DNA of 64,000 nt. It comes from Strigamia acuminata (lineage: Eukaryota > Arthropoda > Chilopoda > Geophilomorpha > Linotaeniidae). The notes beneath the pieces are model-generated. The model did no database searches and had not been told where the DNA came from. It saw nothing but the letters and a program-made list of their open reading frames with translations. The translations under genes and the position numbers were made by a program. Shown piece after piece: positions 12,841 through 50,600 of this stretch. The stretch is taken from the NCBI GenBank assembly GCA_949358305.1, contig CASHSZ010000015.1:65001-129000 (forward strand), given 5' to 3'. Positions within the stretch are counted from its first letter, which is position 1, and each line of letters begins with the position of its first letter.

Positions 12841-12845
12841 ATTTT

Positions 12846-18834: not shown

Positions 18835-19186
18835 CGTAGATCGATTCGCGAAGAGCGTAACACAACGCGAAAATCACACAGGCTCAGAGAGAGGCACTGA
18901 AATGTCGCACGAGATTGGAGCACTTTTCACAATTCGGAGCACTTCACTGCACGATTCCCTCGGTGTTCGATGCGAAAAACCACAAATTGGGCAATTCCTT
19001 CTGAAGGAATCAAATAACCTCCGGTTGCCAGTCTGAGAGGGTCCGATCGGCTTCCTGGAGCCGCGGGAAACCTCACTTGTACCGCGACAAGCACAACCGG
19101 AGAATACGTGTAAGCGTGATCGGACTCGATCGAAGAGCAAACACGATTCTAAAGGAACCCCCAAAAGCCTTAAATTTATCTTAAGA

Positions 19187-19378
19187 TTAACAATGGTATT
19201 TCGACAGAAGGAGAAATAGGTGAATCGATCGCGGTTGCGATCCTCGTGCAAATGAAGGCACGGCGCAGTTTTCTCGAAAAACTGGAAAAAACGCAAATTC
19301 GGATTGAAAAATCCGAATTTCTTCTCGATAAATCGAGGCTCTTCGTCCGGAAAATAATAGATCGACGATACTGTGCAT
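19187..19378 (-). CDS. Upstream ORF in the leader of element D
   Basis: ATG at 19378 opens a 63-codon frame beginning MHSIVDLLF, within the leader and ahead of gag. Element C has an upstream ORF starting MHSIDDLIYY at the same place. Beyond the first residues the proteins are not alike, because small insertions shift the frame, while the RNA hairpins below them are kept. The start may matter for translation control, but the peptide itself is probably not conserved. Confidence 0.35.
   Translation of the reverse strand: MHSIVDLLFSGRRASIYREEIRIFQSEFAFFPVFRENCAVPSFARGSQPRSIHLFLLLSKYHC
19227..19337 (-). promoter_or_regulatory. Five-hairpin RNA domain in the leader of element D
   Basis: Five consecutive perfect or near-perfect stems, read on the minus strand: 19337-19324 (6 bp), 19320-19295 (11 bp, 4-base loop), 19284-19266 (7 bp, loop TCGAG), 19262-19245 (5 bp), 19242-19227 (6 bp). 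Element C has five stems in the same order with almost the same gaps and compensating base changes. It lies between primer site and gag, where retroelement packaging, dimerisation or translation signals usually sit. Confidence 0.75.
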
Positions 19379-19715
19379 ACGCCGGGGTATACACAGCGGA
19401 ATTCGATCCGTTTCTCGTTGAAAAGTGTCACTTCGACACTGGCGAAAGGAAAATCGACGAATAATCTGAAAATATAAAATATTTCTCTCGAAATTCGCGA
19501 ATCCCGCGTAATTTCGGAGAAAATTAGACAAGTGTTGATGTGATTGACGACCCTGGTCGTCTGTGAACGTCGGTAGGACGTCGGCGTCGTAGGCGAGACG
19601 AAAATCGAGACAAAATGGCCGCCGAAAATCTGAAAATAAAAATATCGGCGCAAATTCGCGAATTTTGCGAAAAAGCGTCGAAAGATCAGGTAAATAGAAC
19701 GGTTGTTCACTGAAC

Positions 19716-19733
19716 AACCATCCTCTGCTACCA
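19716..19733 (-). other. Primer-binding site of element D (initiator tRNA-Met)
   Basis: The minus strand reads TGGTAGCAGAGGATGGTT, complementary to the 3' end of eukaryotic initiator tRNA-Met with its CCA, one base from the LTR end. Confidence 0.9.
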
Positions 19734-20621: not shown

Positions 20622-23600
20622 TCACACCGACTCAAAGCTCCGGTCGTCGAGTGCATACGGCGGACGGTCACAGTATTCCAATAGAAACTCCGCGTGGTCC
20701 CGGTCGATATCCTCCGTTGCCGCGATCAACCGGACCATGTACTCCGGGACCAGGACCTTGGGCACTATCGTCGCGAGACGATCCGGCGGCATGCGGGGAA
20801 TGCCTTTCGGTGGAAGCAAACCGACCTCCGCTTCGTAGAGACCCTCGATCTTGCGAACCAGCCATCGACTCTGAAACGTGAATGGAAATTTAAACGAGCG
20901 AACAAACGAACGAACGAGCGAACGATTCGTTAACCCGTACCACCGCCTTGTCTCTGATCAACGCCTCGTGTTGGTCCGTCACCAGGTCTTCTCGCGCGCT
21001 GGTGGTCCCTTTAAACGCGCTCATCCGCCAACTCGCCGACTCGCCTCGGAGGACATTCGCAATGTGCCGGTAGCAAGCGTGCTCTTTGCGGGCCAGGCCC
21101 TCTTTGGTCGTGTAGACGGAGCACCTGCGAAAGAAATTCGGGATTAGTTCGACGAACGAAAAACGATCAACACCGAAAAAAAAAAAAAAAAAAAAAAAAA
21201 AAACTACCGCAGTTTGGAGCAGAGGGGTTCGTCGCGACAACCGCTGCAGACAAAACCTTCGCTTCGGCCGAGTCGTTTGGTCCACGGCCGCCCCACGCAC
21301 TCTTCGTGCACCGAGCATAAACACTCGGAGCATTTGATCTGCGGGTCGGCCACCCCGAGACAGTAGATACTGTCGCAACCGGTTGCCTTGGAGCCAGCGG
21401 CACCACTCCGATCGTGGCGATACAGGGACGTCTGAAATTTGAAACGAGCGAATTTGTGAACGGATACGAGAAAGAAAGAAAGAAAGAAAGAAAGAAAAAC
21501 GAGACAATACGGGACGAGATTTTTCGTTTCTTACCTTGAACGGTTGCGAAAACGGCCGCGAAGAAGATGACCGCGACTGCGACCACGACTGCGACCACGA
21601 CTGCGACTGCGACTCCTTCGATCGCGACTCCTTCGACTGTGACTCCTTCGATCGCGACTCCTTCGACTGCGACCGCGACCGCGACTGCGACCGCGACCGC
21701 GACTGCGACTGCGACTGCGACCGCGACCGCGACCGCGACCCGGTGCAGCGACTGTGCCCGGGCGAGGGCTCGTGTTCGGCGTGTTCGAGTTCGAACTCAC
21801 TTTCTCGCCGACGCTGTATCTCGCGACTCTGTGCGCGGATCATTTGGCCTTCGCACTCTACCTTCGCGCGGTTCTTTTTGCGGACTTCGCGGCGAGCGCG
21901 TTCCTCATCATCGTCGTCGTCGCGGACGAGCGGGATGCCGGGTACCCGACTACGCACGAAAGTGAAGCCGCGTACGGTGATGGGATCGCGCGAGAGGTCG
22001 ACGTCGTATTCTCGGGACTTGCTGGTGGCACCGGCACCGGCACCACGATCGGGGCGGGCGCTGGTGAAGAGGTCGGCACCACTGTCCTCGGCGCCGTCGT
22101 CGTCGCCGCCGCTGCTGCTGCTGCTGCTGCTGCTGTTGCTATTGTCGTCTGCACGTTTAATGGATCCGGCGTGTTTAGCGGCAACAACAGTAGATTTGGC
22201 GCGTTGCTCGGTGGTGGGTTTGGCACGTTGCTCGGCGGCGGATTTGGCGCGTTGCTCGGCGGCGGATTTGGCGCGTTGCTCGGCGGCGGATTTGGCGCGT
22301 TGCTCGGCGGCGGATTTGGCGCGTTGCTCGGCGGCGGATTTGGCGCGTTGCTCGGCGGCGGATTTGGCGCGTTGCTCGGCGGCGGATTTGGCGCGTTGCT
22401 CGGCGGCGGATTTGGCGCGTTGCTCGGCGGCGGATTTGGCGCGTTGCTCGGCGGCGGATTTGGCGCGTTGCTCGGCGGCAGATTTGGCGTGTTGCTCGGC
22501 GGTGCGAAGAGCAGTTGCAGCAGCGGGGGCAATGCGAAAGGTACCAGCGAGAGGAGAGGGACGCGGGGAAGGGAAAGAAGCGGGCATGGAAAACAAGCCC
22601 CTGACTTTGTCCTTTCCGAAGAGGAGATCCAGCACCGGGCGTTGTTGCACCATGTCGATGGCTTCCTGAAAAAGAAAACGAACGAGTCAATTCGATCGAG
22701 TCCTCGACGCGAGTCAGTCACGCACGTTCGACATCCACTTCGTGTACCCTTCCTTCATCAGGTCCAAGTTGCTTTGTTCTACTGGGAGAGAGAGAGAGAG
22801 AGAGAGATATAGAGAGTGAGTGAATAAAAAATTAAAATAATCAGTGAACGAGCGAATAAACCGAAACGTTTTTCTTTCACCTTCTTTTCTGCCTCGCCCT
22901 TTCGTCGTTTCGGTTGATCCGGGACACGTTGCGGCGCCGGGCGTTTCGGCGCCGGTAGTTTCGGTTCGCCGCATCCCCTTTGGTCGATGCTCGACCTTAT
23001 CGTCGCGGTCGGTACGTAAAATTTATGTTTCGTCCAAAGATGTTGCCTCAGGTCATCCGGCTGCGTGTCGCACAAAGGGCAGTCGGACGCGTGCTCCGTC
23101 GTCGAAAACAGTTCCTGTCGGGTAAAAAAACAAAAAAAAAAAAAAAACATACGATTTGTTCAGCGACGACACCGAGCGACCGCGCGAGGAAACACATACG
23201 TACCTGGCAAAAGCCGTCGAATGTGCCGATGTGGCCGCGCAGCAATTTCCTGGCCGCCTCAAAGTCTTTGGCCACGGTGTGCACACTCCGCCAGTGATCG
23301 CCAATGTCCCTGAGTGGGCCAGCCGGTTTCCATCCGCCGCCATCGTCGTCGTCGTCGCCGTCGCCGCCGTCGTCGTCGTCGCCGTCGTCGTAGGCGTAGT
23401 TCGCGCGTTTCCTGCGGCACAGCCAACACATCCCCGCCCTGCTGTGAACGGGCTTGTCCTGAACGAAGAAGAAGAAGAAGAAGAAGAAAAAAAAAAAACG
23501 AGCGAATCGACGACACGGGCGGGCGCCGCTGCTCACCTTCGCAGAGTCGTAAGAGCCAAAGTCTGTTTGTTGCGACTGCGACCCGCTGGGAGGGACTGGG

Positions 23601-25507: not shown

Positions 25508-26051
25508 TGTTGGTCAAAAATAGCCCAAAGTGTGTCGATGTGATATAGGATCACATTTGATCTTTTGTTTATTAATTATCCAAGTGTATTTGTTGTGATA
25601 ATTCAATTCTCGACTTTATTTATGATTATTTATATATTTACCTCGTTTTGTGTACTTAAGCATGGAGTACCATGCATTCTCTAGTTTTTTTGTTTATGTA
25701 ACGCCTAATTCCGACACCAGGTGTCATCCTTGTACTTTTCACCATCCAAGATGGCCGCGCACACGGTTTGGTGCTTGTCTGTTTCTCTCCACCTGGAAAA
25801 TGGACATTTATGTAAGATTTCAATTCATTTCAGTAAAGTTTTATGTTTTTAGTGCATTGCATTTCATTTAGAGCACCTTCTGTGCTGTTGACAATTAGTT
25901 TAGGCGCATATGAGTGGCATTAGGCCGCGCGCACTCGTCTCGGCAATTTGTAGCATTGTCGCTACGTCCGTGTCAGTGACACGGCGCCCGCGCACGTTTC
26001 CACGCTTCGGTTTGCACCGAATTTTGCGCTGCTCTCCTCTGCTGCCCTTCA
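25508..26051 (+). repeat. 5' LTR of element C
   Basis: It is 544 bp and runs TGTTGGTC...CCCTTCA. It holds hairpins GCATGGAGTACCATGC and GACACCAGGTGTC, then CCATCCAAGATGGCC. The last two are shared in order with the LTR of element D. Confidence 0.95.
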
Positions 26052-26053: not shown

Positions 26054-26071
26054 TGGTAGCAGAGGATGGTT
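26054..26071 (+). other. Primer-binding site of element C (initiator tRNA-Met)
   Basis: TGGTAGCAGAGGATGGTT, two bases after the LTR, complementary to the 3' end of initiator tRNA-Met. Confidence 0.9.
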
Positions 26072-26185
26072 TAGCTATTCTTTTGCCACTAATTTTCGCC
26101 GAAAATTCAGCGAATTTTCGCGAATTTCGCGGCGAATTTTTCGTTTTAGGTTTACGTCGATTTCCGGCCCGATTTCGGTGAGAAG

Positions 26186-26650
26186 TGTTGGGATATGCCC
26201 AACTGTTTGAGATTTATTAGTTGCATATTTATGGCTAAATGCAACGTGCATGTCTTTACTTTGCTGTGACTTAGTTAAACTAGTTGATCCTGATTTTTAC
26301 CCTGCTTGTTATGTGCCGCAACTAGTTTATTTACTTGTAAAGATGTGCCTTCTCGTCGTCCGCTCAAATGAGCAATATTCGTTTAGTTTTTCCATTGCTT
26401 TTGAGTTGTTTATCGCTTATTTGCTCCTCCCTTATTGTTTATCATGTAAAGGACAAATCATTGCTTGCTAACAATGATTTGTTCTATTGTAAGCTTGTAT
26501 TCATACTTTGAGGGCGGCTAGCCTCAAAGCAGTCGTTTTTACTGTGGTTCGTGACGATTAAAGATGGCGGTCGCGCAATGCGAGTTCCCGCACCCATTAA
26601 ATCATGTCTCAGCTCTATTTTCCTGATGTCCGGCGCCTACAATCTCATCA
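26186..26650 (+). repeat. 5' LTR of element B
   Basis: It is 465 bp and runs TGTTGGGATATGCCC...CTCATCA. It contains a 13-bp stem hairpin (26451-26484), a second hairpin (26507-26528), ATTAAA (26557-26562) and AAGATGGCGG (26561-26570). The start TTGGGATATGCCCAA is itself a palindrome. Confidence 0.95.
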
Positions 26651-26652: not shown

Positions 26653-26670
26653 TGGTAGCAGAGGATGGTT
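26653..26670 (+). other. Primer-binding site of element B (initiator tRNA-Met)
   Basis: TGGTAGCAGAGGATGGTT, two bases after the LTR, identical to the sites of C and D. Confidence 0.9.
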
Positions 26671-27010
26671 GACGACGCGGCCAACCGTTTGTGATGAATT
26701 GGCGGCGATTTTTGTGAAGGAACGGACATCGCGACTTCGTCGGTATCGTCGCAGAGACGTATCGCCGTTTTCGGGATTTTAGCAAAGCGGACGAGCTTTG
26801 ACAACGTGTGCGGGCAATTCGCCAACGAATTTGGAACAAAACAGTGTGAGAATTGTCGTTTTTTCGTGCGAAATAAGCACATTTGCCGATATAAAGAAGA
26901 TTTTTCTTCTGCGGCGCCATTTTTTTTTACTTCATCGCGTACGGCCGTGAAGCCAGCAGAGAATCGTGTGTACGGATCGACACACGCTCTCATCACGATT
27001 CAACAAAGAA

Positions 27011-27183
27011 TACGTCGAAACGACGTAATTTTTGGACCGTTTTTCGTTGAAAATCAACACGGAAGTCATCGTGCGAATCGATTTTTCGACGGCGGCCGGA
27101 TTTTTCGTCAAAGCAGACGAAAAACGACGTGTGAGAATAATTTTCAACGTAAGGACCTGTGTGGGCATAAATTTGCACACAGG
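27011..27183 (+). promoter_or_regulatory. Hairpin-rich leader segment of element B
   Basis: Perfect stems at 27011-27027 (TACGTCG / CGACGTA, loop AAA), 27101-27124 (9 bp) and 27156-27183 (8 bp), all between primer site and gag. The sequence differs from the C/D hairpins, but the position and style match. A homologous leader in element E keeps similar short-loop stems. Confidence 0.55.
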
Positions 27184-27757
27184 CATCAGCTATTTGAGCA
27201 CCTAGAAGACCAGTTAGCGGGTTAAACGTACGCGCTGGCATTTTCCCGAGGTTTTGTGCACGGAGCACATCCTACGAAGGTGCGGACGAGCACGTTGAGT
27301 CGACGTGCATCGATTTCACGACGTGGGATCAACGAGGGAATTTTTGCGACGCAAACCAACCCGCAAAACAACGGATTTTCACCTTGCCAACTATTATTTA
27401 GTTTTAAGTTGTCGAAATTCATTGTTAATAAGTTTAAGGTTTTGTTTGGGGGTCTTGTAGTATCCTTTCCACCCTTTACGCAGTCGCGTAGTGGAATTGT
27501 ATTTTTGCGTAGGCTTTCTCTGGCCACCGAGTGTCCCGCGGTCCTAGGAGTCCGGTCGGAACTCGGGAGATACTACGTAAAGTTTTGCATCTCACTTAGT
27601 GAGATTTGTCCAAGGGAGACTGTATAATTTTTCGCCTAAACCTTTTGGGGGTTTACGCCATTTATAAAAGCGTAAAGAGTGTGTTTTGTGCTTCATTTGG
27701 TGTGTGCGACGATTTATTTAGTGATAAAGTGTAATCTTCGCGACGAATCGACTAGAT

Positions 27758-30700
27758 ATGGCGTCGGAGGAGAAATGCGACGATTATAAGTCAATCAAAA
27801 AACTAAATGGGACAAATTATGCACAATGGGCGATTGGTGCGAAGTTGTTGTTATCCCAGCAAGGCGTGTGGGACCACGTGACGGGCGACGAGACCGCGCC
27901 GGGTCCCAACGCCACAGCCAAAGAGAAACGGGATTTTAGAGTGCGTGAGAAGCGAGCATGGTCCACGATATGCTTGAGTTGCGAAGAAGCGCAACAGCTC
28001 GTGGCCGTTGCCAAAGATACTTCTAAAGGAGCGTGGGAAGCAATCCGAGATGCTTACCAGCCCACCACACGCGCCCGGAAAGGCAGATTGAGGCGCGAGT
28101 TCCTGCAAATGCATCTAATGGACAATGAGGAGATGATGTGTTTTCTGGCCCGTGTCGACAGAAAAGTCGCGGAACTCGCGAATGTCAAAGTAATACCGAC
28201 GGATGAGGAAATTGCATTCCAATACATGGATTTCCTCCCTACAACTTATGAGACTATAAAACAAATAATGTATCACTGGGAGGATTTGGACTTCACCCCT
28301 GCAAAAGTGAAAGACCGATTATTAGGAGAGTATAATCGTTTATTTGAAGCTTCAGACTCCTATGGTATGCGTACACAGGATTCCACTGATAATGCAGGCG
28401 CATTCTTTGGAAAAGGGCGATTCCAACGCGGAAAAGGCGGAAATCAGCCATTTACACCTCGGACTTGTTTTTCCTGTGGCGGCACTGGTCACTTCGCGAG
28501 AGAATGCCCGTCACCGCCCAAACAACAAGCGAATATGCAAAGCCAACGAGGTGGCACCTCTGCACAGCTAGCAAAAGGCACTGCACGAGGACGTGGCCGT
28601 GGTGGAAAGACCAAAAAGGCCAATTTGGGACAAGTTGACATTTTTGATGAGCCCTTGACAATGTTTTCAGCGGCAGTTCACCAAACTGAAGAGGAAGTCA
28701 CCTTGTCACCACCATTGTCTTTGATGTCACATTGCGACTTTGATCCGCACTGGTACATAGATACCGGTGCGACAGATCACTTTTCATTTAATAGAAGTTG
28801 GTTCGTGACCTTCAAGCCACTGTCCGGCTATAGTGTCCAGCAGGGGGAAGGGAAGTCTAAAATCGAGGGCATTGGAAACGTGTTGATTACATCTTGTTAT
28901 GCAGGCAGATGTAGGGAAATCACACTGCAAAATGTGTATTTTGCGCCAAATTTTAAGAAAAATCTCTTATCGCTGGGCCGGACAGATGAAGCTGGTTTCA
29001 CAACTTTTATCAAAAATGGAAAGTTGACCATGTTTAGAGACCGAATTGGTGAGCCTTTCCTTGTTGCAGATAAAACTAATGATCGGATGTACAAAGTTAA
29101 CTGCAAAATAGAGGCCAATATTGTGAACACAACTGCACCTTCTGCGCAACAGAGTGCAGCGGTGGGTGGAAATTCGGTCAAAAATGTTGTAAAAAGTGAA
29201 AGTGTCATTAATCCTTTACTAAAAACAGTAGATTTTAAGGCAGCATTACTAAACACATTGAGTGGCGCAGTGCAGACTGCAGCGAAGCAGCAAGTGAGCG
29301 TAAATGCGCTAGTAAATGCGTCAAATCTTAAGAAAAGCGATTTAAATGATACTAACGGGCAAAATAATTCGAATGGGGGAAAAATCGAAAAGATCAAAGT
29401 GAAACCACAGCCAATGGACATTTGGCACTCCAGAATGGGCCATTTTAACGCAAGTGGGATTGCAAAAATGGAAATTTCACCGGATATTTTCGGAGTTAAA
29501 CTCTCCGACAAAGAACTTTCACCCTGTGACGCGTGTTCGAAGGCAAAGAGCACTAGGGCAACCTTTTCCCCAATCCCGGAAATTTCTACAAAGGGAATTT
29601 TGGAAGTAATCCACATGGATCTGTGGGGCCCCCAGCCTTTTAAATCTTTGGGAGGGGCCAGCTATTACCTAATAATTGTAGATGATTATTCGCGTTTCAT
29701 GTGGGTGGAAATTATCAAGAATAAGGGGGATACATTTGAGCGCTTCAAACGATGGCAAACACAAGTTGAGCGCAGCACCGGGAAAAAGGTCAAATGCATC
29801 AAGACAGACAACGGCGGGGAGTTTGTGTCGAAAAAGTGGGATGACTATGCGGCTTCTATTGGGCTTAAGTGCATCCAAACAAACCCCTACTCCCCAGAAA
29901 TGAATTCCGTGGCCGAAAGAGCAAACAGAACAATTGTTGGGGGAATTAGAGCCATGCTTTTCGAAAACAATTTTCCAAAGGGTTTGTGGGCAGAATTAGC
30001 CGTGACAGTTGTCTATCTTAAAAATAGATTCCCACATGCAAGCTTGAGTGGGAAAACCCCTTACAACTTGTTTCATAACAAGAAAATGTCGTTGAGACAT
30101 CTAAGATGTATCGGTTCTAAAGTTTTCGTGCACATTCCTTCGCAAACAAGGAGAAGCAAGTTGGAAGAAAGGGCATGGCCTGGGGCCCTAGTCGGTTACG
30201 CAATTAAGACGCGTGGGTATCGAGTTTGGGACCCCAAGTCCAACCAAGTGATTGCTTCAAAGCATGTAAAGATTAATGAAAATGTTTTTTGGCATGAATC
30301 GGTGCAATCAAATTCCATCCCACGTGAGCCAGATTTTGTAGCGGCATCATGGGATGAAGATTCAGATGATGAGATCCTACCTGCTGTACAACAGCAACAG
30401 GTGCCCCCTGTCATACAGCAGTTGTTTCAGGCCCCGAAACATGCGATTCCGAATCCCCAATTAGTCCAACAGGCGGTCGAGCCTGAAGCTGTGGAAGAAA
30501 TCGCCCAAGCTGTTGGTGGGATCGAAGAAGAGGAGGAGCAACAAGTGGAAGTTCGGCTTCCAAATCCGACTCTCACCCCCCCACCAGTTAGGAGGAACCC
30601 ACCACGGGGTGTTAAGTTAAAGGGGGACACAGTGAAACAGCGTGCAGCTGCTCCCGAGAAGTTAAAAATTTTAGATATGACACAATGGCAGCGGAGAGAA

Positions 30701-32431
30701 ACCGTTAGGCAGAGTGGTGAAACTGCTGGCCAGGTAGATGTAATCTACATAACACCACTTGGCGATAGAATCCGCAGTCGGATTGATGTTGTACGATGGT
30801 GCAAAGAGGAAAACTATCAGTACGATGGGGGTTGTTTCGACTTTAAGGCAACAGATGAGACCGTTGGGTTCGCCGGTCATGCATCCGTCGAGCCGGATAC
30901 TTTCGAAGAAGCTATGTCCAACCCCAATAAATCCGACTGGCAGGATGCCATGGATGATGAGATTAATATCTTTAATGACAGGAAAGTTTACGAGGAAGTT
31001 GATAAAACCGAGGGGATGAATTTACTGGGAACAAAATGGATTTACAAAATCAAGCGTGACTACACTGGGGCAATTAAGCGTTGGAGAGCACGTTTAGTTG
31101 CGCAAGGTTTTGGGCAGAAGGAGGGAGTTGACTTCACTGAGATATTTTCACCAGTGGTCAACTTTGTTCTCGTGCTTATATTCTTTTGTTCTCTTGTGGT
31201 TCTGCAAGGCTGGCGAGATACACATCTCGACATCAAGTCTGCGTACTTGTACGGAGACCTTGATGTGCCACAATACATTAATATCCCCAAGGGCTTCCGG
31301 ACCAAGGAGAACCAACACAAGTGTTGGCGTCTAGTCAAATCCTTATACGGACTTCACCAGTCCGGAAGGATGTGGTATTTCAAGCTCCACGAACGATTAC
31401 TGGAAATAGGATTTACTCCAGTCTTAGGACTGAATTGCGTATATAATTACGGCTCAGATGCCGTACTTTTGTTTTACGTGGACGACATTGTTTTGTTTAG
31501 TCGTGATGCTTTCGTTGAACAATGTATCATCGAGTGGATTCAAGAGAGCTTTGAAATTGTCAACCTTGGACCGGTGACTCTTTTATTAGGGATTCATTTT
31601 GAAAGGAAAAATGGGGACATTTTAGTACATCAAAAGAGTTATATTGCGAAATTAGTCGAGAAATACGACATTGATCCGTGCCATAAAATTAAAATCCCAG
31701 TCACAGTCGGTACCATGATACAGAAGGTACAACCGGGTGAACAAATAAACTCGACGTTCCCATACAGGTCCCTAGTAGGGAGTTTACTCTTTATCGCGAA
31801 TAGAACGCGTCCAGATATTCTCTTCAGCGTTATTGTATTATCTCAATACAATGAGACCCATTCTAACAGGCATGTTAAAATGCTAATACAAGTGTTGAGA
31901 TATCTGGCGAATACCCCCAACTATGTTATCAACCTGGCAAATTGTAAGAACAATAATTTAACGGTTTACACCGACGCGTCCTTTGCCTTGGATCAAGACA
32001 GTAGGAGAAGCTTTGGTGGCCACATAGTTTATTTAGGAGGGGTTCCGATTTCATGGAATTGTCGAAAACAATCCATGACTTCATTGAGTATAATGGAAAG
32101 CGAATTTCTCGCAGTTGTCGATGGCGTGAGAGAAGTGATATGGCTTGAACGCCTGTACGAAGCCGATATCATCTTGTGTTTCAACCGAAATGTCCCTTGC
32201 GTCTACGCCGATAGCATGCCGGCAATCAATTATGCGAAAAACAAGATCGAGAACCGTGCAAATAAACATATAGATGTTAAATTGCACTTTCTTCGTGATT
32301 GGTATGAAAAAGGCGTGTTTAGTATTAAACATGTGCCTGGCGAATTGAACATCGCGGATTTGATGACAAAATGGTTGCCGCGCCCCAGATTATGTCAGCT
32401 CTGTGAGCATATTTTTGTTGCAGTCAAATAG
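27758..32431 (+). CDS. Gag-Pol polyprotein of copia element B
   Basis: A single 1557-residue frame from ATG at 27758. Gag (UBN2-type) spans about 1-225 and the CCHC knuckle CFSCGGTGHFARECP lies near 237. Protease has Asp335 in DTGATDH. The integrase zinc region is near 550-600, with catalytic Asp621, Asp684 and Glu720, which gives the DD35E spacing. Reverse transcriptase covers about 1090-1330 with YVDD at 1240. RNase H starts near Asp1406 (TDASF), followed by MESEF and YADSM motifs. It has no stop or shift. This is the reference against which the deletion in element A and the replacement in element E are judged. Confidence 0.95.
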   Translation: MASEEKCDDYKSIKKLNGTNYAQWAIGAKLLLSQQGVWDHVTGDETAPGPNATAKEKRDFRVREKRAWSTICLSCEEAQQLVAVAKDTSKGAWEAIRDAYQPTTRARKGRLRREFLQMHLMDNEEMMCFLARVDRKVAELANVKVIPTDEEIAFQYMDFLPTTYETIKQIMYHWEDLDFTPAKVKDRLLGEYNRLFEASDSYGMRTQDSTDNAGAFFGKGRFQRGKGGNQPFTPRTCFSCGGTGHFARECPSPPKQQANMQSQRGGTSAQLAKGTARGRGRGGKTKKANLGQVDIFDEPLTMFSAAVHQTEEEVTLSPPLSLMSHCDFDPHWYIDTGATDHFSFNRSWFVTFKPLSGYSVQQGEGKSKIEGIGNVLITSCYAGRCREITLQNVYFAPNFKKNLLSLGRTDEAGFTTFIKNGKLTMFRDRIGEPFLVADKTNDRMYKVNCKIEANIVNTTAPSAQQSAAVGGNSVKNVVKSESVINPLLKTVDFKAALLNTLSGAVQTAAKQQVSVNALVNASNLKKSDLNDTNGQNNSNGGKIEKIKVKPQPMDIWHSRMGHFNASGIAKMEISPDIFGVKLSDKELSPCDACSKAKSTRATFSPIPEISTKGILEVIHMDLWGPQPFKSLGGASYYLIIVDDYSRFMWVEIIKNKGDTFERFKRWQTQVERSTGKKVKCIKTDNGGEFVSKKWDDYAASIGLKCIQTNPYSPEMNSVAERANRTIVGGIRAMLFENNFPKGLWAELAVTVVYLKNRFPHASLSGKTPYNLFHNKKMSLRHLRCIGSKVFVHIPSQTRRSKLEERAWPGALVGYAIKTRGYRVWDPKSNQVIASKHVKINENVFWHESVQSNSIPREPDFVAASWDEDSDDEILPAVQQQQVPPVIQQLFQAPKHAIPNPQLVQQAVEPEAVEEIAQAVGGIEEEEEQQVEVRLPNPTLTPPPVRRNPPRGVKLKGDTVKQRAAAPEKLKILDMTQWQRRETVRQSGETAGQVDVIYITPLGDRIRSRIDVVRWCKEENYQYDGGCFDFKATDETVGFAGHASVEPDTFEEAMSNPNKSDWQDAMDDEINIFNDRKVYEEVDKTEGMNLLGTKWIYKIKRDYTGAIKRWRARLVAQGFGQKEGVDFTEIFSPVVNFVLVLIFFCSLVVLQGWRDTHLDIKSAYLYGDLDVPQYINIPKGFRTKENQHKCWRLVKSLYGLHQSGRMWYFKLHERLLEIGFTPVLGLNCVYNYGSDAVLLFYVDDIVLFSRDAFVEQCIIEWIQESFEIVNLGPVTLLLGIHFERKNGDILVHQKSYIAKLVEKYDIDPCHKIKIPVTVGTMIQKVQPGEQINSTFPYRSLVGSLLFIANRTRPDILFSVIVLSQYNETHSNRHVKMLIQVLRYLANTPNYVINLANCKNNNLTVYTDASFALDQDSRRSFGGHIVYLGGVPISWNCRKQSMTSLSIMESEFLAVVDGVREVIWLERLYEADIILCFNRNVPCVYADSMPAINYAKNKIENRANKHIDVKLHFLRDWYEKGVFSIKHVPGELNIADLMTKWLPRPRLCQLCEHIFVAVK

Positions 32432-32448: not shown

Positions 32449-32913
32449 TGTTGGGATATGCCCAACTGTTTGAGATTTATTAGTTGCATATTTATGGCTA
32501 AATGCAACGTGCATGTCTTTACTTTGCTGTGACTTAGTTAAACTAGTTGATCCTGATTTTTACCCTGCTTGTTATGTGCCGCAACTAGTTTATTTACTTG
32601 TAAAGATGTGCCTTCTCGTCGTCCGCTCAAATGAGCAATATTCGTTTAGTTTTTCCATTGCTTTTGAGTTGTTTATCGCTTATTTGCTCCTCCCTTATTG
32701 TTTATCATGTAAAGGACAAATCATTGCTTGCTAACAATGATTTGTTCTATTGTAAGCTTGTATTCATACTTTGAGGGCGGCTAGCCTCAAAGCAGTCGTT
32801 TTTACTGTGGTTCGTGACGATTAAAGATGGCGGTCGCGCAATGCGAGTTCCCGCACCCATTAAATCATGTCTCAGCTCTATTTTCCTGATGTCCGGCGCC
32901 TACAATCTCATCA
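32449..32913 (+). repeat. 3' LTR of element B
   Basis: Same 465-bp sequence as 26186-26650, starting directly after the purine tract and followed by the AGAAG duplication and the resumed leader of element C. Confidence 0.95.
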
Positions 32914-33132
32914 AGAAGAACGTCGCCGCTACGTTACCGACGTTCCAGAGCAGTCTGTGCTGTTTTCCACGCGACCCTGCATTTAATTTCGACCATAATT
33001 CCGCGGTCTCGCGAATTTTGAGTCGAATTTTTTATTTATTTTCAGTTTTTGTCGATTTGCGACACGACAACGCTAAAATAGCGTCTTTTCATCGAGAAAC
33101 GAGACGATTCTCGCTGTGTCATACCCCGGCGT

Positions 33133-33504
33133 ATGCACAGTATCGACGATCTGATTTATTACGACGAATTTTTGGCGTATTTTCGTGAAGAGCCTCATTT
33201 AATGAGAAGAATTTGGATTTTCGAATCCAAATTAGCGCTTTTAACGGGTTTTACGAGAAAACCCGCTCGTGCCTTTATCACGAGCTCGCGTGACGTTACG
33301 CGAGAGATTCATCAACTTTTCTCCTTCCCTGTCGTGAAACTTTGTTATTTTAAGATATTATTTAAGGCTTTTGGTTGGTTCCCTATTAGAATCGGTGCAG
33401 CCCTTCGGACAAGTCTGTCCAAGCTGCATTTGTATTCTAGAGTGAGGCTGAGCCCTGCGCCACCTAGTATTCCCGCGATCCCAGGCGATCTCAAAGGACA
33501 CTAG
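33133..33504 (+). CDS. Upstream ORF in the leader of element C
   Basis: ATG at 33133 opens a 123-codon frame starting MHSIDDLIYY, ahead of gag and covering the hairpin domain. It corresponds to the D upstream ORF at 19378-19187 only in its first residues. There is no similarity to a known protein. Confidence 0.3.
   Translation: MHSIDDLIYYDEFLAYFREEPHLMRRIWIFESKLALLTGFTRKPARAFITSSRDVTREIHQLFSFPVVKLCYFKILFKAFGWFPIRIGAALRTSLSKLHLYSRVRLSPAPPSIPAIPGDLKGH
33194..33304 (+). promoter_or_regulatory. Five-hairpin RNA domain in the leader of element C
   Basis: Stems at 33194-33206 (5 bp), 33210-33233 (10 bp around a TTCG loop), 33245-33265 (8 bp, loop ACGAG), 33265-33285 (7 bp) and 33285-33304 (7 bp). 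Order, gaps and loop CGAG match the D domain at 19337-19227, while most stem bases differ in a paired manner. It lies between primer site and gag. Confidence 0.75.
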
Positions 33505-33711
33505 GGGGACACTCACTCTAGGTTATCAGCTGATTGTAGCATCGGCTTCCAATTTGTGGTTTTCCGCCTCGAAAGTGCTTGTGCTTCGGTTAGTGTTTGT
33601 GATCGTGACGTCGGATTGTGTAGTGCTACGAGTGTCTTCTACTACGCCCGTACCACTCTCTACGCCTTTGTGTTTTCGCGGTGTGCAAGGTCGAAGGATT
33701 TTCACGCCAGG

Positions 33712-36700
33712 ATGCAGAAATCCGGCTACGCGGAACCAACGGCTGGGAAATGTCCGATGCTAGGAATAAACAATTACGAACAATGGCGTCGTTCCATGTG
33801 CATGCTCTTAAAGTCAGAAGGCCTTTGGAGACATGTCACCGAAGAAAAGGAGGCCGAATATTTATTGACATTAACCCCGAAAGAGACTGAGAAATATAAA
33901 CTGAAGAAAGACAAGGCGTTGGGACACATTTATTGTCACGTGAGCGAAGCAAAACGCTCCACACTGGACAACGCCAATACCCCGAAAGAAGCTTGGGACA
34001 TTTTGTCGAAAATCTTCGCTCCCAGTTCTCTGGCTCGTCAAGCAGCCATGAGATGGCAATTTCTGGGATTACACCTCGAGCCAAACGAGGATATGGTCGA
34101 TTTCGTGAGTCGCGTTAACCTGCACGTACGCCAACTACGAGACATGGAAGAAGAAGTGTCGGAGAAGCATCATGCTTACCAATACTTACATCGTCTACCT
34201 CCGGAATATGCGCAAGCCACGTTTGCGATATACAATTGGCCCGTGGCAAATTTTACACCGGACAAAGTATCCGAACAGCTCATATCCGAATACCTTCGCC
34301 TCAAATCCGTAGGACTACATAACGTGTCGGCGTCAGCTCACGCGGCTAATCAAAATCCGCAACAATCCCGCCAAGGTTCTCGTCCGCGTCGTCCATTATC
34401 GCAGGTCAAATGCTTTAACTGTGACGAAATGGGTCACTATGCGAATAAGTGCCCATATCCTAAACGCGACAACCGGAATCAACAACCGACAGCTTCTTTC
34501 CAACGCTCTCGCAGCAAGAGCAAGAAGCGTGGCAAGAACTCGGCTCCCAAACCCGAGGACAATCGCCCGAGAGGAAGTTCTCATCCGGTTCGCAACGCAG
34601 TGTTTTTCGTGAACGCTCCGCCGATGATTGAACGTCCCGTTGCCCATCTGATGCAGTCACATGAATGGATAGTCGACTGCGGCGCCACTGACCATGTTTC
34701 CCACGTACGGTCGTGGTTTTCTGATTTCTCAGACATCGTCCCTTTTGACATCGAGTTGGGACAAGGGAAATCACAAGTGACTGGCCGAGGAAATGTCCTA
34801 TTGCAGACTCGTGTGGACAATTCTCACTGCAATGTGACATTAACGAATGTGCTTTATGCACCCAATTTCGAGGCAAATCTAATCTCCGTCTCGAGGATCG
34901 ACAAGACTAGTCACCATATCCACACCTATAACGGGGAGATCAACATTTATAAATCGAACATTGCTGAAACAATTCTCAGAGCAAAGGAGAAGGGAGGATT
35001 GTATTACCTGGATGGGTTGTGTACAAATCCAACGGTTGCCACTACGTCTTCACAGATAATCCAACAACCGCCAGTACAGACATTTGTTACGACGGAAGTT
35101 GACTTCGTGAATATTCCAAAGGCGAAGAAGCAGAAGGCTATGCAACGAAACATCACGGATTTTAGGATTCAAATGCCGCCATTGCCTGCGACTGAGGTGC
35201 CAACGTCAATTTCGGTTGCCACTAATCCTTTACCCGTGCCACAATCCTTGCCCATCCACATCAACCCTCCAATCCAATCCTACGCCAACGCAATCCAGCA
35301 CATTCCATCTAGTCCTCCACCTGTTACATTTCCTCTTCCTATCCAATCCGCTGGTAACCCTTCTCAATCACAAAAGAAGGTTATTCCAAATCCTGTTCAA
35401 ACGCCAAAGAAAACCCTTGCCAATCCTGCCTCCGTAAAAGACGCAACTGGTTTGTGGCATAGTCGCCTAGGACATTTGCACACCAATGCGATGCGATTGT
35501 TGGCGAACAACGACCAGGTATATGGACTCGAACCCGCGGAAGTATCACAGGAACTGGCGTGCAATGATTGCCGACTTGCAAAGTCCATAAGGGCTTCTCA
35601 CAAGCCTGATCTGCATCCTTCAACTTCAAAGCCACTTGATCTCCTGCACATGGATGTCTGGGGGCCAAATCCGATTCCTTCATTTGGTGGCGCCCGATTC
35701 GTTTTTACGGTTATTGATGACGCGACGCGATATACATGGATCACTCCTTTAGCCCAGAAGTCCCAGGTCTTCTCATGTTTTAAGGACTTCGTCGCCCGAG
35801 TCGAGTGTGTTGCAAACACACGCGTGAAAGCCATTCGATCTGATAGGGGCGGCGAATTCATGTCCAACGAATTTCTGCAATATCTAAAGGAGAGAGGGAT
35901 CCAGGGTCAGCGGACTAACCCTTCGGGCCCTCAAATGAACGGCACAGCCGAAAGGATCAACCGAACGATGGCTGACCATCTCCGGGCTGTTCTTGAAGAA
36001 ACCAAACTTCCTGCCGGTTTATGGGCCGAAATCGCTGTCAATTTCGCATACATCAAGAACCGCAGTCCACATTCTCGTTTGAACAATCAAGTCCCATATA
36101 TCCTTTGGCGCCAGCGTGCTCTTTCGTTACGTCATCTGAGGAAAGTTGGATCCAAGTGCTGGGTGCACTTTACTGCACCGGGACGCAAAAAGCTCGATCC
36201 CCGTGCTTGGGAAGGTTTCCTTGTGGGATACGCCACTGGCACACGTGGTTATCGAGTGTGGAACCCTATAGACAATAGCGTAACGGAATCAATCCATGTA
36301 CGCATTGATGAACATCAGTCATATCGGAAGTCGCTTAAAACGCGGAATGGTCATCGCCAAGAGACATTCACAGAACCCGAAGTTGGTCAACAACAACAAC
36401 AGAGAGTGTCGTTTGACGACACCGTTTATTTGGATTGGCCGAAAGTCGAATCTGATGATGATTCATCGAGTGACGATGATGACGATGATGATAACGGGAA
36501 TGGATCCGTTTCGAAATCGATATCGATTCCCTGTGTTCGCCTTTCTCCGTTGAGAACGCCTGAACGTCAATTAATAGAGGCGTGTGCGCTGGCATTACCA
36601 GATTCAGCGAGTATGGGACGGTCAATATCGTATCCTATCCTTTATCAAGAAGAAGGCCAAGACACTGATGAAGATGTTGAACAGATCGGCGAAGAGGCAA

Positions 36701-38724
36701 TCCAACCGGATATGCTTGAGCAATCTCAATCTCAGCATGTCTCAGCAGAATCGCAAGCAAGTTCTCCCGGTCTTTCACCACCTGGTTCACCTCTACGTTT
36801 TGTAACTACACGTAGGAGAATCGGCCAGGATATTTTGCACCACACGATGCCTATCTTCGACCAAGGTGCAATGTCTCCATTACCCCAAGGTGCAACGTTT
36901 GTCGAAGCACCCTCGGTCGGCAGAACATCTTTCTACTGGCGTTATATCGGTGGTGACACCATTTTCCGTCGATGGGTCCGCGAAGAACATTTACGGAAGG
37001 ATCAGCGGCCCGGTTGTATCGATACCGATGTTTACTACTTTCCGGAACCGAATCTACGACTTAGATCCAGAAAGGAGGTCGAAGAGTTTTGTACCATGAA
37101 CGACCTTCCATACGATTCGAAACTTTTCTTCTTCGGGAGCATAGAACATACCATCCCTACGATCCCAGCAGTGCGACATGCTGTTCACCTCTGCCGAACC
37201 GAACCGACTTCTTATGCGGAAATTCCAAAATTTCAGGACGCTCCGAAATGGCGTGAAGCCATCAATGAAGAATTGGGGATTTTTAAGGAGAGGCAGATTT
37301 ATCAGGAAGTTCCGAGACCACCCAATACTACAGTTTTAGGCTGTAAATGGATCTTCAAACTGAAGACGGATCTAAGCGGCGAAATAACTCGTTATCGTGC
37401 TCGACTCGTCGCACAAGGCTTTCGCCAAACCATCGGGGTTGATTACGACGAGGTTTTTAGTCCGGTCGTGAACTTTGTTTTGATCCGACTGTTCTTCTGT
37501 CTTCTAGTCGTCCTCAGAGGATGGAAGGACGCACACCTCGACGTCAAAAGTGCATACCTGTATGGGGACCTGAAGCACAAGGTATACATGCGCATCCCCG
37601 CAGGTGCAACTTGTTCGAACCCCGCAAACGTCTGGCTACTTGTTAAATCCCTCTACGGACTTCACCAATCGGGGAGGGAATGGTACGAAAAGTTGGATGG
37701 AACGCTTCGAGCTCTCGGTTTTCGGAAGATGCCCGCGTGCAATTGTGTGTACATTTACGGCAATTGTGCCGTCATGCTAGTTTACGTGGACGACATCGTA
37801 CTGTTCTACGCTTCCGACACCGTGTTAACCCGAATCATCCGGCTTATCTCGTCCAAGTTCGACATAGTTAATCTTGGTCCCATCACGAGGCTATTGGGCG
37901 TCGAGTTCATCCGAGACGCTGGGCGAACCTTCATCACGCAACGCGCCTACATTACCAAGCTCGTTAAGAAGTTCGAGGTCTCTATCAATCGCCTCGTGAA
38001 GGTTCCCGTCACACCCGGGACGACGCTCGTGAAGGGGTCTACCGAAAATCTACCGGACTTTCCTTACCGATCTCTCATCGGTTCGCTCCTGTTTCTTGCT
38101 TCGAGAACTCGCCCCGACATCTTATTTTCGGTCATTTCGCTGAGTCAGTTCAATACGTGTTACGACGAAACCCACATCCGAGCCCTGCTCCAAGTCCTAC
38201 AATACGTGGCCAATACCATCGACTATCGTATCGAACTTTCCGGCTGCAATTCTAGCCAATTGTGGGCTTGTACGGATGCTTCATGGGCAAGCGACTTGGC
38301 AACGTCCTTAAGTTTCGGCGGATTCGTAACCTTCATCGGAAATGTGCCAATTGGCTGGTCGTGCCGAAAACAATCAACGGTCGCATGTTCAACCATGGAA
38401 GCTGAATTCATCGCCCTGGTTGAGTGCGTTAAAGAAACATTCTGGCTCGACAACATTTTCACCGAGTTCCCGATCTTGAACAGAATATCTCGTCCTATCA
38501 TCTATTCCGACGCCCTCGCAGCCATCCAGTTTACTTCGAATGACGTGGAGAATTCCAAGACTAAGCATATCCGCGTCAAATATCATTGGCTACGAGAGTG
38601 GTATACGGCGGGATGTTTCAGTTTACACAAAGTTTCCGGTGAACAGAACATTGCGGACATTTTTACCAAATGGCTCAGTTCTGAGCGTTTGCGATCGTTA
38701 ATCTCTAAGATCTTCCGACTTTGA
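33712..38724 (+). CDS. Gag-Pol polyprotein of copia element C
   Basis: The open frame extends to 33556, but that codon is GTG. The first ATG is at 33712 and gives MQKSGYAEP, matching the D start, so 1670 residues. The CCHC knuckle CFNCDEMGHYANKCP lies near 234. The protease motif is Asp322-Cys-Gly, as in D and unlike the DTG of A and B. The integrase zinc region is near 583-620, with catalytic Asp648, Asp711 and Glu747. Reverse transcriptase has YVDD at 1358, and RNase H begins near Asp1522 (TDASWASD). The linker between integrase and RT is Ser/Asp-rich with a run of Asp near residue 925. The frame is intact, but with B in the leader its transcript would carry an extra 6.7 kb, so normal expression is doubtful. 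Confidence 0.95.
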   Translation: MQKSGYAEPTAGKCPMLGINNYEQWRRSMCMLLKSEGLWRHVTEEKEAEYLLTLTPKETEKYKLKKDKALGHIYCHVSEAKRSTLDNANTPKEAWDILSKIFAPSSLARQAAMRWQFLGLHLEPNEDMVDFVSRVNLHVRQLRDMEEEVSEKHHAYQYLHRLPPEYAQATFAIYNWPVANFTPDKVSEQLISEYLRLKSVGLHNVSASAHAANQNPQQSRQGSRPRRPLSQVKCFNCDEMGHYANKCPYPKRDNRNQQPTASFQRSRSKSKKRGKNSAPKPEDNRPRGSSHPVRNAVFFVNAPPMIERPVAHLMQSHEWIVDCGATDHVSHVRSWFSDFSDIVPFDIELGQGKSQVTGRGNVLLQTRVDNSHCNVTLTNVLYAPNFEANLISVSRIDKTSHHIHTYNGEINIYKSNIAETILRAKEKGGLYYLDGLCTNPTVATTSSQIIQQPPVQTFVTTEVDFVNIPKAKKQKAMQRNITDFRIQMPPLPATEVPTSISVATNPLPVPQSLPIHINPPIQSYANAIQHIPSSPPPVTFPLPIQSAGNPSQSQKKVIPNPVQTPKKTLANPASVKDATGLWHSRLGHLHTNAMRLLANNDQVYGLEPAEVSQELACNDCRLAKSIRASHKPDLHPSTSKPLDLLHMDVWGPNPIPSFGGARFVFTVIDDATRYTWITPLAQKSQVFSCFKDFVARVECVANTRVKAIRSDRGGEFMSNEFLQYLKERGIQGQRTNPSGPQMNGTAERINRTMADHLRAVLEETKLPAGLWAEIAVNFAYIKNRSPHSRLNNQVPYILWRQRALSLRHLRKVGSKCWVHFTAPGRKKLDPRAWEGFLVGYATGTRGYRVWNPIDNSVTESIHVRIDEHQSYRKSLKTRNGHRQETFTEPEVGQQQQQRVSFDDTVYLDWPKVESDDDSSSDDDDDDDNGNGSVSKSISIPCVRLSPLRTPERQLIEACALALPDSASMGRSISYPILYQEEGQDTDEDVEQIGEEAIQPDMLEQSQSQHVSAESQASSPGLSPPGSPLRFVTTRRRIGQDILHHTMPIFDQGAMSPLPQGATFVEAPSVGRTSFYWRYIGGDTIFRRWVREEHLRKDQRPGCIDTDVYYFPEPNLRLRSRKEVEEFCTMNDLPYDSKLFFFGSIEHTIPTIPAVRHAVHLCRTEPTSYAEIPKFQDAPKWREAINEELGIFKERQIYQEVPRPPNTTVLGCKWIFKLKTDLSGEITRYRARLVAQGFRQTIGVDYDEVFSPVVNFVLIRLFFCLLVVLRGWKDAHLDVKSAYLYGDLKHKVYMRIPAGATCSNPANVWLLVKSLYGLHQSGREWYEKLDGTLRALGFRKMPACNCVYIYGNCAVMLVYVDDIVLFYASDTVLTRIIRLISSKFDIVNLGPITRLLGVEFIRDAGRTFITQRAYITKLVKKFEVSINRLVKVPVTPGTTLVKGSTENLPDFPYRSLIGSLLFLASRTRPDILFSVISLSQFNTCYDETHIRALLQVLQYVANTIDYRIELSGCNSSQLWACTDASWASDLATSLSFGGFVTFIGNVPIGWSCRKQSTVACSTMEAEFIALVECVKETFWLDNIFTEFPILNRISRPIIYSDALAAIQFTSNDVENSKTKHIRVKYHWLREWYTAGCFSLHKVSGEQNIADIFTKWLSSERLRSLISKIFRL

Positions 38725-38944: not shown

Positions 38945-39488
38945 TGTTGGTCAAAAATAGCCCAAAGTGTGTCGATGTGATATAGGATCACATTTGATCT
39001 TTTGTTTATTAATTATCCAAGTGTATTTGTTGTGATAATTCAATTCTCGACTTTATTTATGATTATTTATATATTTACCTCGTTTTGTGTACTTAAGCAT
39101 GGAGTACCATGCATTCTCTAGTTTTTTTGTTTATGTAACGCCTAATTCCGACACCAGGTGTCATCCTTGTACTTTTCACCATCCAAGATGGCCGCGCACA
39201 CGGTTTGGTGCTTGTCTGTTTCTCTCCACCTGGAAAATGGACATTTATGTAAGATTTCAATTCATTTCAGTAAAGTTTTATGTTTTTAGTGCATTGCATT
39301 TCATTTAGAGCACCTTCTGTGCTGTTGACAATTAGTTTAGGCGCATATGAGTGGCATTAGGCCGCGCGCACTCGTCTCGGCAATTTGTAGCATCGTCGCT
39401 ACGTCCGTGTCAGTGACACGGCGCCCGCGCACGTTTCCACGCTTCGGTTTGCACCGAATTTTGCGCTGCTCTCCTCTGCTGCCCTTTA
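38945..39488 (+). repeat. 3' LTR of element C
   Basis: 544 bp. It differs from 25508-26051 at two places that I noticed, including the terminal CA changed to TA. It is followed by the GGGCC duplication. Confidence 0.95.
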
Positions 39489-47625: not shown

Positions 47626-50600
47626 TGCTACGGTCGACGGCGATTCGCATGCGCTATCCGCTGCATCAAACCCCAAATACCGATAAAAAATCGCTGAAAA
47701 CACTAATCCCGACCCAAAAACCGCCAAAATTACCCTCAACACACGCAACAACCTTCCACCACTTAAATTACACCGGAAAAAAACAATTTCAAACCGAAAA
47801 ATCAACAAAAAAGGCCAAAAAAATATTGCAAACAAAGAGAAAAGATCAATTATCGAGGCAAATCCCCACCACAAAACAACGCATCGCCGGTATACACTTA
47901 AGCGTACAGTGCACAACACTACTGTTTATTTTCAATGATCCAATAAATAAAATTTGAAACAAAGTTGAGTGGAATTGTACGTTTCTTGTATATTAAAGTT
48001 TTTATTTTGTTTGTTTACACTTAATTTTTTTTTTCCATCATAGAATGGCGACTCGATACTTTTGTAGCTCGAATTCACTTCGTAAACGTGGTCGGTGTTC
48101 ATCACGCGTCAATGCGCTCGTGCAATAGTATAGGCGCGCATACAATTTGATGCGCGCAAAACTTGCAAAACTTGCACGGAATTTGGGCAATTTTTGACAA
48201 ATTTCAGCAGATTTTTGCCTGTATTTGACAAATTTCAGAAGATTTTTGCCTATATTTGACAAATTTCAGAAGATTTCCTCAATCCTCAAACATTTGCTGA
48301 AATTTCTCATAAAATTTCTAAAATTAATTGAAATTTGTCTGAAATTTGTCTGGAATTTGTCAAATATTGTCAAAAATCCGTGGAAATTTGTCAAATACTG
48401 GCAAAAATCCATGTAAATTTGTCAAAAATTGCCATAATTCGGTGCAAATTGTGTTAGATATTGGAAAAATTTATTTTAACGCTTCCAACGCGCCAGTAAA
48501 TCGCGCGTGCACACGCATGGATTTTTCGTCATAGTTGGATGCGCGCAAACCTCACGTAACTTGCGCCAAAATTTGGCAATTTTTGACAAATTTCAGCAGA
48601 TTTTTGCCAGTATTTGACAAATTTCCACTGATTTTTGACAATATTTGACCCAACAACTGCGCCACGTTCCAGGCGCCGGTTTAGGCATTTTAGACCCGTT
48701 TTAGACCGTTTTAGATGGCGAAAACGTTCTCTCCATCATTTTCTACCCCTGGGTGAGGTTTTCAGCGTTCATGATTGATGAAAAAGCTGTTTTCTAACTA
48801 GCTGTCCCATTGCTAGTTTTGGCGTCAGGTTTTAGCAACCTTCCGATCCGACTCTGTCGTCTGCACGACCTCCAAGACTGTTTTAGGGTTAATTTGAGTC
48901 AAATAATTCATTCTGGGGGTTGTTTTGGGTTTTTTACAAGTGTGTTTTTGTAGTTTTTATTGGTTTCAAACATTGTCAATTCTTTATACAAGTGTAACTT
49001 TCATTTCTCTGTATTTTGAGAACTTTGCATTGCAGCAAAGTTCATTTCTTGCCCCTTAATTATTGTGTAATTGTTGGTTTTCAAGCCCGTTTTTTAACAA
49101 TAACTTTATTTGAAGTGCCTATTGTTTCAGGCACGTGCTTCCACGTGCCTTTTATTGTTGAGCAATTTCTTGGGCAGTTGCGCTCCTGTTGCTAGCATTG
49201 CCGCGCGTTCTCCGCGCGTGTACTCGCGCGTTTCGCATCACACACATTCGGGTTCGATGGCCTATCGCGGCGGCACATTGTGTGGCATAGCGCGGCACGT
49301 TGCAATTACGTGACGTGGCACGTTGCTGTTACGTGACGCGATAGCCAGTATTTAAGCAGGGGATTCCATCATCGTTTACACAAATGCGCATTGCAACGTG
49401 GAGGCGCATTCGAGTCCTTTTCCCAAGCGAAATCGTATTCGATTCGCTTTCGAATCGAATACGAGTTTTGTCCTTTTTCAACGCGAAATCGTATTCGATT
49501 CGCTTTCGAATCGTATACGAGATGGTCGATGATTTTTGTTTCCCGGACTTTGATTCGTATTCGAGTTGTTACGAGTTCGTATTTTGATCGTATTCGTATT
49601 CGAATCGAATTCGAATCGTATTCGAATCGAATACGAATCGAATTCGAGTCGTATTCGAGATGGTCGATGATTTCCACTCGCTCGTATACGCGTTGTATAC
49701 GAGCTCGTATTTTGATCGTAATCGTAAACGAATCGTTTACAAGTCGTATACAAGTTGTATACGACGTGTATACACCTCGTATACGAACGAAGTTTGGAAA
49801 ATCCACCGGATACTTACTACGACATGAAAACACATAGTAGTCACATACGTCTTATTTGGAAATTGTGTTTTCACAAACTTCGTTCGTATACGAGGTGTAT
49901 ACACGTCGTATACAACTTGTATACGACTTGTAAACGATTTGTTTACGATTACGATCAAAATACGAGCTCGTATACAACGCGTATACGAGCGAGTGGAAAT
50001 CATCGACCATCTCGAATACGACTCGAATTCGATTCGTATTCGATTCGAATACGATTCGAATTCGATTCGAATACGAATACGATCAAAATACGAACTCGTA
50101 ACAACTCGAATACGAATCAAAGTCCGGGAAACAAAAATCATCGACCATCTCGTATACGATTCGAAAGCGAATCGAATACGATTTCGCGTTGAAAAAGGAC
50201 AAAACTCGTATTCGATTCGAAAGCGAATCGAATACGATTTCGCTTGGGAAAAGGACTCGAATGCGCCTCCACGTTGCAATGCGCATTTGTGTAAACGATG
50301 ATGGAATCCCCTGCTTAAATACTGGCTATCGCGTCACGTAACAGCAACGTGCCACGTCACGTAATTGCAACGTGCCGCGCTATGCCACACAATGTGCCGC
50401 CGCGATAGGCCATCGAACCCGAATGTGTGTGATGCGAAACGCGCGAGTACACGCGCGGAGAACGCGCGGCAATGCTAGCAACAGGAGCGCAACTGCCCAA
50501 GAAATTGCTCAACAATAAAAGGCACGTGGAAGCACGTGCCTGAAACAATAGGCACTTCAAATAAAGTTATTGTTAAAAAACGGGCTTGAAAACCAACAAT

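Follow-up and report, generated by a model that had tools for sequence, protein, structure and literature searches.

A conserved structured RNA leader in copia retrotransposons of the centipede Strigamia acuminata and its possible role in genome dimerisation and packaging

Introduction

The region between the primer binding site and gag commonly serves retroelements in the selection, dimerisation and packaging of their genomic RNA. In retroviral packaging leaders, a string of stem-loops lies between the primer site and gag, and one palindromic loop among them provides the kissing-loop dimer site. The centipede leader described here is similar to these in layout; retroviruses belong to a different superfamily.

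Closer systems are found among the LTR retrotransposons. In the account of the TIPIRT domain of yeast Ty1, hairpins lying near the 5' end, with tips that complement each other, belong to a kissing-loop model for dimerisation and packaging, and mutating them reduced retrotransposition and RNA stability (PMC5454406). In Ty3, a short 5' hairpin carries the PAL6 palindrome at its tip, and this palindrome has been proposed to start dimerisation (PMC11381356). For BARE2 of barley, the signals for dimerisation and packaging are described as conserved (PMC3735527).

The leader analysed here shares features with each of these systems. Like the Ty1 domain, it provides an RNA of the copia superfamily with a structured 5' end that includes potentially kissing hairpin tips. 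However, Ty1 as described has a 326-nt pseudoknot, a 5' UTR of 53 nt and a structure that runs into GAG (PMC5454406), whereas the centipede elements, as far as nested pairing goes, carry a hairpin array and a branched domain inside a leader of about 0.9–1.1 kb between primer site and gag. Like PAL6, the hairpin named H0 below has a CCGG tip, while Ty3 belongs to the Ty3/gypsy superfamily and a hairpin array is not apparent in its account (PMC11381356). BARE1 and BARE2 are likewise copia elements with an untranslated leader, of a plant lineage (PMC3735527). Inverted repeats are also kept in non-coding parts of sireviruses; there, as far as the account goes, the palindromic motifs are located close to the 3' LTR, with an inverted repeat at the polypurine tract, rather than forming leader hairpins (PMC2829016). 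In outline, the leader resembles known retroelement leaders, and it is not the Ty1 pseudoknot domain as that domain is described.

Rfam gave no match at the gathering score for the whole window; the sole match to the C leader was istR, far below threshold (14.6 of 45 bits, E 3.3), and the D and B leaders gave nothing at E ≤ 1. A leader of this kind was also not found by title or abstract start among the matches listed from the open-licence literature.

The Host Elements and Their Surroundings

The window is a stretch of 64,000 nucleotides of contig CASHSZ010000015.1 (positions 65,001 to 129,000), belonging to an assembly of 237.5 Mb in 157 contigs. Three of its elements, B, C and D, are Ty1/copia LTR retrotransposons by domain order, LTRs and primer site. 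In each, Retrotran_gag_2, rve and RVT_2 follow one another in one ORF, the order typical of copia, and TGGTAGCAGAGGATGG, a primer site of the initiator-Met-tRNA type, lies at most 5 nt from the end of the 5' LTR. Element C, on the forward strand, has LTRs at 25508–26049 and 38945–39486, a primer binding site at 26054–26069 and a gag-pol ORF running from its ATG at 33712 to 38724. It is split by the nested copia element B, also forward (LTRs 26186–26650 and 32449–32913, ORF 27758–32431). Element D lies on the reverse strand, with LTRs at 20263–19734 and 13616–13087, a primer binding site at 19718–19733 and a gag-pol ORF at 13825–18834. The LTR pairs are identical to 99.8% in C and 100% in B and D, so that all three insertions look young. 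A 5-bp duplication, AGAAG, borders element B on both sides (26181–26185 and 32914–32918), in keeping with its insertion into the C leader between the primer site and the hairpins; because nested B interrupts C, the C primer site lies far from the C hairpins in the window.

A protein homologue search with the first 500 residues of D returned nine matches, the best three from the centipede Strigamia maritima (43–60% identity, 33–85% query coverage). The B polyprotein contains a methyl-CpG-binding domain (PF01429, residues 977–1031, E 1e-10) between the SH3-like and reverse-transcriptase domains; none is listed for C or D. Other repeats occur in the window as well. An inverted repeat at 47777–51893 has 2025-nt arms, 100% complementary and 67 nt apart, parts of which recur at 43–45 kb and 59–64 kb beside 56-bp tandem repeats. 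A 169-nt repeat is present in five copies (6175–6343, 11392–11560, 11792–11960, 12243–12411 and 12685–12853); its GGGACTCGAAC-like stretch gives the impression of a tRNA-derived sequence, and it is possibly a SINE. A 24-bp tandem repeat lies inside long open frames on both strands at 22121–22576.

Domain I: Five Hairpins and an Upstream Neighbour

The original prediction placed five consecutive hairpins in the leaders of C and D, and they are present where it placed them. In C, on the forward strand, H1 occupies 33194–33206, H2 33210–33233, H3 33245–33265, H4 33266–33284 and H5 33285–33304. In D, the array covers 19227–19337 on the reverse strand, with H1 at 19337–19324, H2 at 19320–19295, H3 at 19284–19266, H4 at about 19262–19245 and H5 at 19242–19227. 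The minimum-energy fold of the 111 nt of C consists of exactly these five hairpins. The corresponding 111 nt of D fold into H1, H2, H4 and H5, while the 3' arm of H3 pairs with a 5' arm shifted upstream; folded alone, the H3 piece of D gives the named stem. Both arrays are more stable than any of 200 dinucleotide shuffles (C −39.3 kcal/mol, z −5.01; D −38.3 kcal/mol, z −4.21). In sliding windows over the leaders, the array is among the strongest fold signals, and the primer-site end of D and other stretches score too.

Some details of the array differ between copies. The H3 loop reads ACGAG in the C copy of the window and TCGAG in the other aligned C-family copies, and the difference between C and D in H1 is an inserted pair. 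A pyrimidine-rich stretch follows H5 in both C and D. Upstream of H1, the letters AAGAGC could pair with GCGCTTTT after H2; this putative pairing, P1 (33188–33241 in C, forward strand), could close H1 and H2 into a three-way junction. The P1 duplex is predicted in all 12 rows examined, with energies of −2.5 to −8.1 kcal/mol; L107 and the type of the window D copy have the weakest pairing. Its letters are nearly invariant, some of them fixed by the search pattern, so that covariation is uninformative for it.

A further hairpin, H0, which the original prediction had not included, lies just upstream of the first linker, at 33114–33140 in C (forward strand) and 19371–19396 in D (reverse strand). 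In C it is a 10-bp hairpin with one bulge and the loop CCCCGG. Of 35 distinct sequences, 34 keep this loop and one has CGCGG instead, while the stem varies, for example CTGTGTATAC/GTATGCACAG, CTATATACAC/GTGTATATAG or CATGCAC/GTGCATG. Its CCGG is self-complementary, so that H0 combines a kept self-complementary loop with a varying stem, the sequence pattern of a kissing-loop dimer site. The stem carries a mismatch in some sequences (L026, L097, L101, L103, L105 and L106); a regular-expression miss left L102 out of this per-hairpin listing. Taken together, H0 to H5 fold modestly better on the transcript strand than on its complement in 10 of the 12 rows. These strand energies were kept, and a count of G-U against A-C pairs was set aside as biased by fold-defined stems and by two mis-cut rows (L078 and L100).

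Two observations concern the setting of the hairpins. In one C-family copy, L029 (G000:C6:15700194-15703379), the primer site joins the 3' arm of H0 directly, the stretch between them being lost and H1–H5 kept. A coding origin of the hairpins was considered and rejected, as the ATG-led frames through H0 and H1 differ between C and D and several H0 variants have no ATG.

Sampling of Leaders and Covariation in Domain I

Further leaders were collected from the genome by two DNA searches, with 40 scored matches each, and by a linker pattern, AGTAYCGNCGA plus GAANAGCCTC. Two letters at the end of H0 and three at the start of H1 are set by the pattern itself. It occurs at 174 places in the 237.5 Mb (88 forward, 86 reverse), and its reversed form at none. 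Many spacers among the pattern matches listed belong to neither C nor D, and five further leader types, L103–L107, were retrieved from these matches. The resulting set holds 107 loci from 90 places, 17 loci repeating places, and comprises 35 distinct sequences without L029, which lacks half of H0; 15 of these are below 97% identity to one another. The C- and D-family copies were chosen by similarity to the hairpin region. For this reason the identity of H1–H5 in a clade of five C copies (99.1%, against 66–94% elsewhere in the leader) is inflated.

The claim that paired positions change together between C and D proved to be thin evidence when taken by itself. In a sequence-only alignment of the six hairpins of a C-type and a D-type leader (L002 and L034), two or three double changes keep a pair, depending on direction, but five or two pairs break and five or four meet a gap. 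Eight such sequence-only contrasts between leader types were scored for double changes that keep or break a pair. Those with little shared history gave 2:0 (L105/L106), 3:1 (L034/L103) and 2:0 (L002/L094), and the others 6:0 (L104/L103), 4:2 (L104/L105) and 3:0 (L002/L106); comparing C-type with D-type gave 2:1 or 3:0, depending on direction. In the three low-history contrasts, one-sided changes keep a pair four times and break it nine times, for which misalignment is perhaps partly responsible.

Further evidence comes from a swapped-arm test, in which each hairpin is split into its 5' and 3' halves and pairing within types is compared with pairing after the halves are permuted among types. 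For six divergent types, chosen by the author from the 15 with L107 and near relatives of C and D excluded, the permutations as good as the true pairing numbered 1 of 720 for H2 and for H5, 3 for H3, 12 for H0, 24 for H1 and 672 for H4; for H1–H5 together there were none in 100,000. With nine types, some closely related, the counts out of 20,000 were 1 for H0, 2391 for H1, 2 for H2, 11 for H3, 18,835 for H4 and 1 for H5. Pairing is thus kept despite changing letters in H0, H2, H3 and H5, borderline in H1 and without support in H4. Among the five original hairpins, compensating changes are therefore clear in H2, H3 and H5, weak in H1 and unsupported in H4. The additional leader types lend support to selection acting on RNA structure in the stretch from primer site to gag. 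A home-made check resembling R-scape, which takes phylogeny into account, was nearly empty for domain I: 15 sequences gave no significant pair, and 35 gave one, in H0 (E 0.043). Column-by-column proof for domain I is thus lacking, which speaks against strong claims about individual pairs.

Domain II: A Branched Fold Before gag

A second structured region, absent from the original prediction, starts about 80–90 nt downstream of H5 and is better supported than the five hairpins. Domain II of C covers 33393–33550 on the forward strand and consists of a hairpin, IIa (33393–33430), a long stem, IIb (33436–33446 with 33512–33522), which encloses IIc (33461–33468 with 33500–33507) and IId (33474–33490), and a final hairpin, IIe (33528–33547). 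Within IIb lies a kept core resembling CCCGCG..CCAGG. The same architecture is found in D (18989–19145, reverse strand) and, with different stem letters, in B (27464–27611, forward strand), as well as in two further types, L092 and L093. The arms of IIb illustrate how far the letters have changed: TCTAGAGTGAG/CTCACTCTAGG in C, TCTCCGGTTG/CAACCGGAGG in D, TCTGTGGCAAG/CTTGCCACAGG in L092, TCCAAAGCAAG/CTTGCTTTGGG in L093 and TTTTGCGTAG/CTACGTAAAG in B.

Arm swaps among these five types gave 1 of 120 permutations, the lowest value possible, for five of the six helices and 13 of 120 for IId, and none of 100,000 for the six together. In this test, the arm limits were set by the author from the alignment, and rows much like C or D were left out, together with L056, L028, L091 and L094, the four of the 14 leader rows besides B in which domain II is broken or incomplete. 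A further complementary IIa pair, CGCAATAGC/GCTATTGTTG, occurs outside the swap test in L009 and its kin, which are otherwise C-like. The predicted energy is −50 to −59 kcal/mol for 148–158 nt, with z of −2.2 to −2.9 when the domain is cut at its own ends; fold scores in 110-nt windows are weak here because such windows cut the fold. Together, the data support well the view that the leader contains a conserved structured RNA, its pairs kept through two-sided changes in H0, H2, H3, H5 and five of the six domain II helices.

In B, the upstream part is less comparable. Local hairpins lie about where domain I would be expected (27156–27183, 27255–27269, 27290–27308, 27312–27330 and 27343–27355, forward strand), and no sequence similarity to C or D was found in 27156–27355. 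The B leader as a whole is clearly more distant, with no significant similarity to the C leader (best E 0.37); against the D leader, the primer site matches at E 2e-5, and the other matches are weak, two of which (E 0.010 and 0.12) fall within or close to domain II.

The Leader as Part of a Translated RNA

Upstream ATGs are strongly depleted in the leaders counted. The count covers twelve of them: D, B, the part of C that starts at 32914, and nine retrieved C- and D-family copies, so that they are not mutually independent. They contain 2–4 ATGs each against a shuffle mean of 8.7–13.1, and only 0–9 of 1000 shuffles are as low. The control triplets CAT (4–15) and GTA (6–17) are not scarce in the same leaders. 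The leftover ATGs of D lie in the primer site and the 3' arm of H0, and those of C in H0 and H1; B and L017 have one each elsewhere. As the scarcity extends over the whole leader, it is unlikely to be an intron. The depletion fits a leader within a translated RNA that would be scanned to the gag ATG; it speaks for scanning over internal ribosome entry and is compatible with either.

Possible Functions of the Leader

Confidence is about evenly divided on the preferred reading, in which the two domains, domain I comprising H0 and H1–H5, form a genomic-RNA leader for dimerisation and packaging. It starts from the fold, the pairing kept as letters change, the kept H0 loop and the ATG scarcity, and its further steps are argued by analogy. 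The full-length RNA, its upstream ATGs purged, would be scanned to the gag ATG; newly made Gag would recognise both the array and domain II; a pair of RNAs would join through the self-complementary CCGG loop of H0; and the dimer would be packed and then reverse-transcribed. The parallels with Ty1, Ty3 and BARE2 suggest the assignment of roles, with H0 as a putative kissing-loop site, by its likeness to Ty1 and Ty3, and H1–H5 with domain II as a candidate Gag-binding structure. Points against this reading are the nearly empty R-scape-like check of domain I, the missing covariation of H4 and its weakness in H1, the one-sided changes that mostly break pairs, the four rows with a broken or incomplete domain II, the choice of C- and D-family copies by likeness to the hairpin region, and the stability of domain II, which may hinder scanning.

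That same stability could instead belong to a translation element, in which the leader, above all domain II, would bring ribosomes to the gag ATG by internal entry or shunting, or would adjust how much Gag is made. Such a role appears unlikely without being negligible: in all three elements domain II ends about 145–160 nt short of the gag ATG, and the pyrimidine-rich stretch after H5 in C and D would suit it, but the ATG depletion fits scanning and would be unneeded by an internal entry site, and about 400 nt separate the upstream hairpin array from gag. A role in reverse transcription, where the fold would position primer tRNA and primer site so that the first strand can be started and transferred, is judged rather improbable. 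It draws on the Ty1 5' domain, described as joining translation, packaging and reverse-transcription roles (PMC5454406), and on D, in which the 3' part of the primer site lies in an arm of a 13-bp hairpin (19724–19696), with a similar hairpin in B (26663–26690), so that the primer site may be masked until the tRNA anneals; the distance of about 340–740 nt from the D primer site to H0–H5 and domain II argues the other way.

Two further readings are less likely still. Palindromic protein-binding sites acting at the DNA level, such as a leader enhancer, have precedents in an enhancer in the untranslated leader of Drosophila copia, reported in a paper cited in PMC2829016, and in the palindromic repeated motifs of sireviruses (PMC2829016). 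They are nevertheless a very improbable explanation here, since a protein site would keep its letters, whereas the stem letters vary widely with pairing kept, as in the five different IIb stems, and the transcript strand is the better folder in 10 of 12 rows. Least credible of all is a structure free of selection, made of chance hairpins and shared ancestry. The nearly empty R-scape-like test for domain I, the failure of H4, the arms shared by related types and the one-sided breaks, which are not rare, would agree with it, but the swapped-arm tests on divergent types do not, the arm swaps of domain II contradict it, and complementary changes over whole domain II stems are hard to obtain by ancestry alone.

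A bolder extension of the packaging reading is possible, if doubtful. Domain II, found in B, C, D and two further types, and the hairpin array would together make up a new family of RNAs. As a modular 'Gag handle' of animal copia elements, it would let H0 join two genomes by its CCGG kiss, and Gag would read the array and domain II.

Significance

Little seems to be known of what allows copia elements of animals to select their own RNA and pair it. A leader with covariation support, present in many families of one genome, offers a short and well-delimited RNA for probing, and for dimerisation H0 yields a prediction that concerns a single loop. Between co-resident families, the leader keeps its form as its letters change; this bears on how the families avoid cross-packing of RNA. 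If the 'Gag handle' were real, stem letters would drift between families, perhaps keeping each RNA private, while the architecture, loops and linkers would stay.
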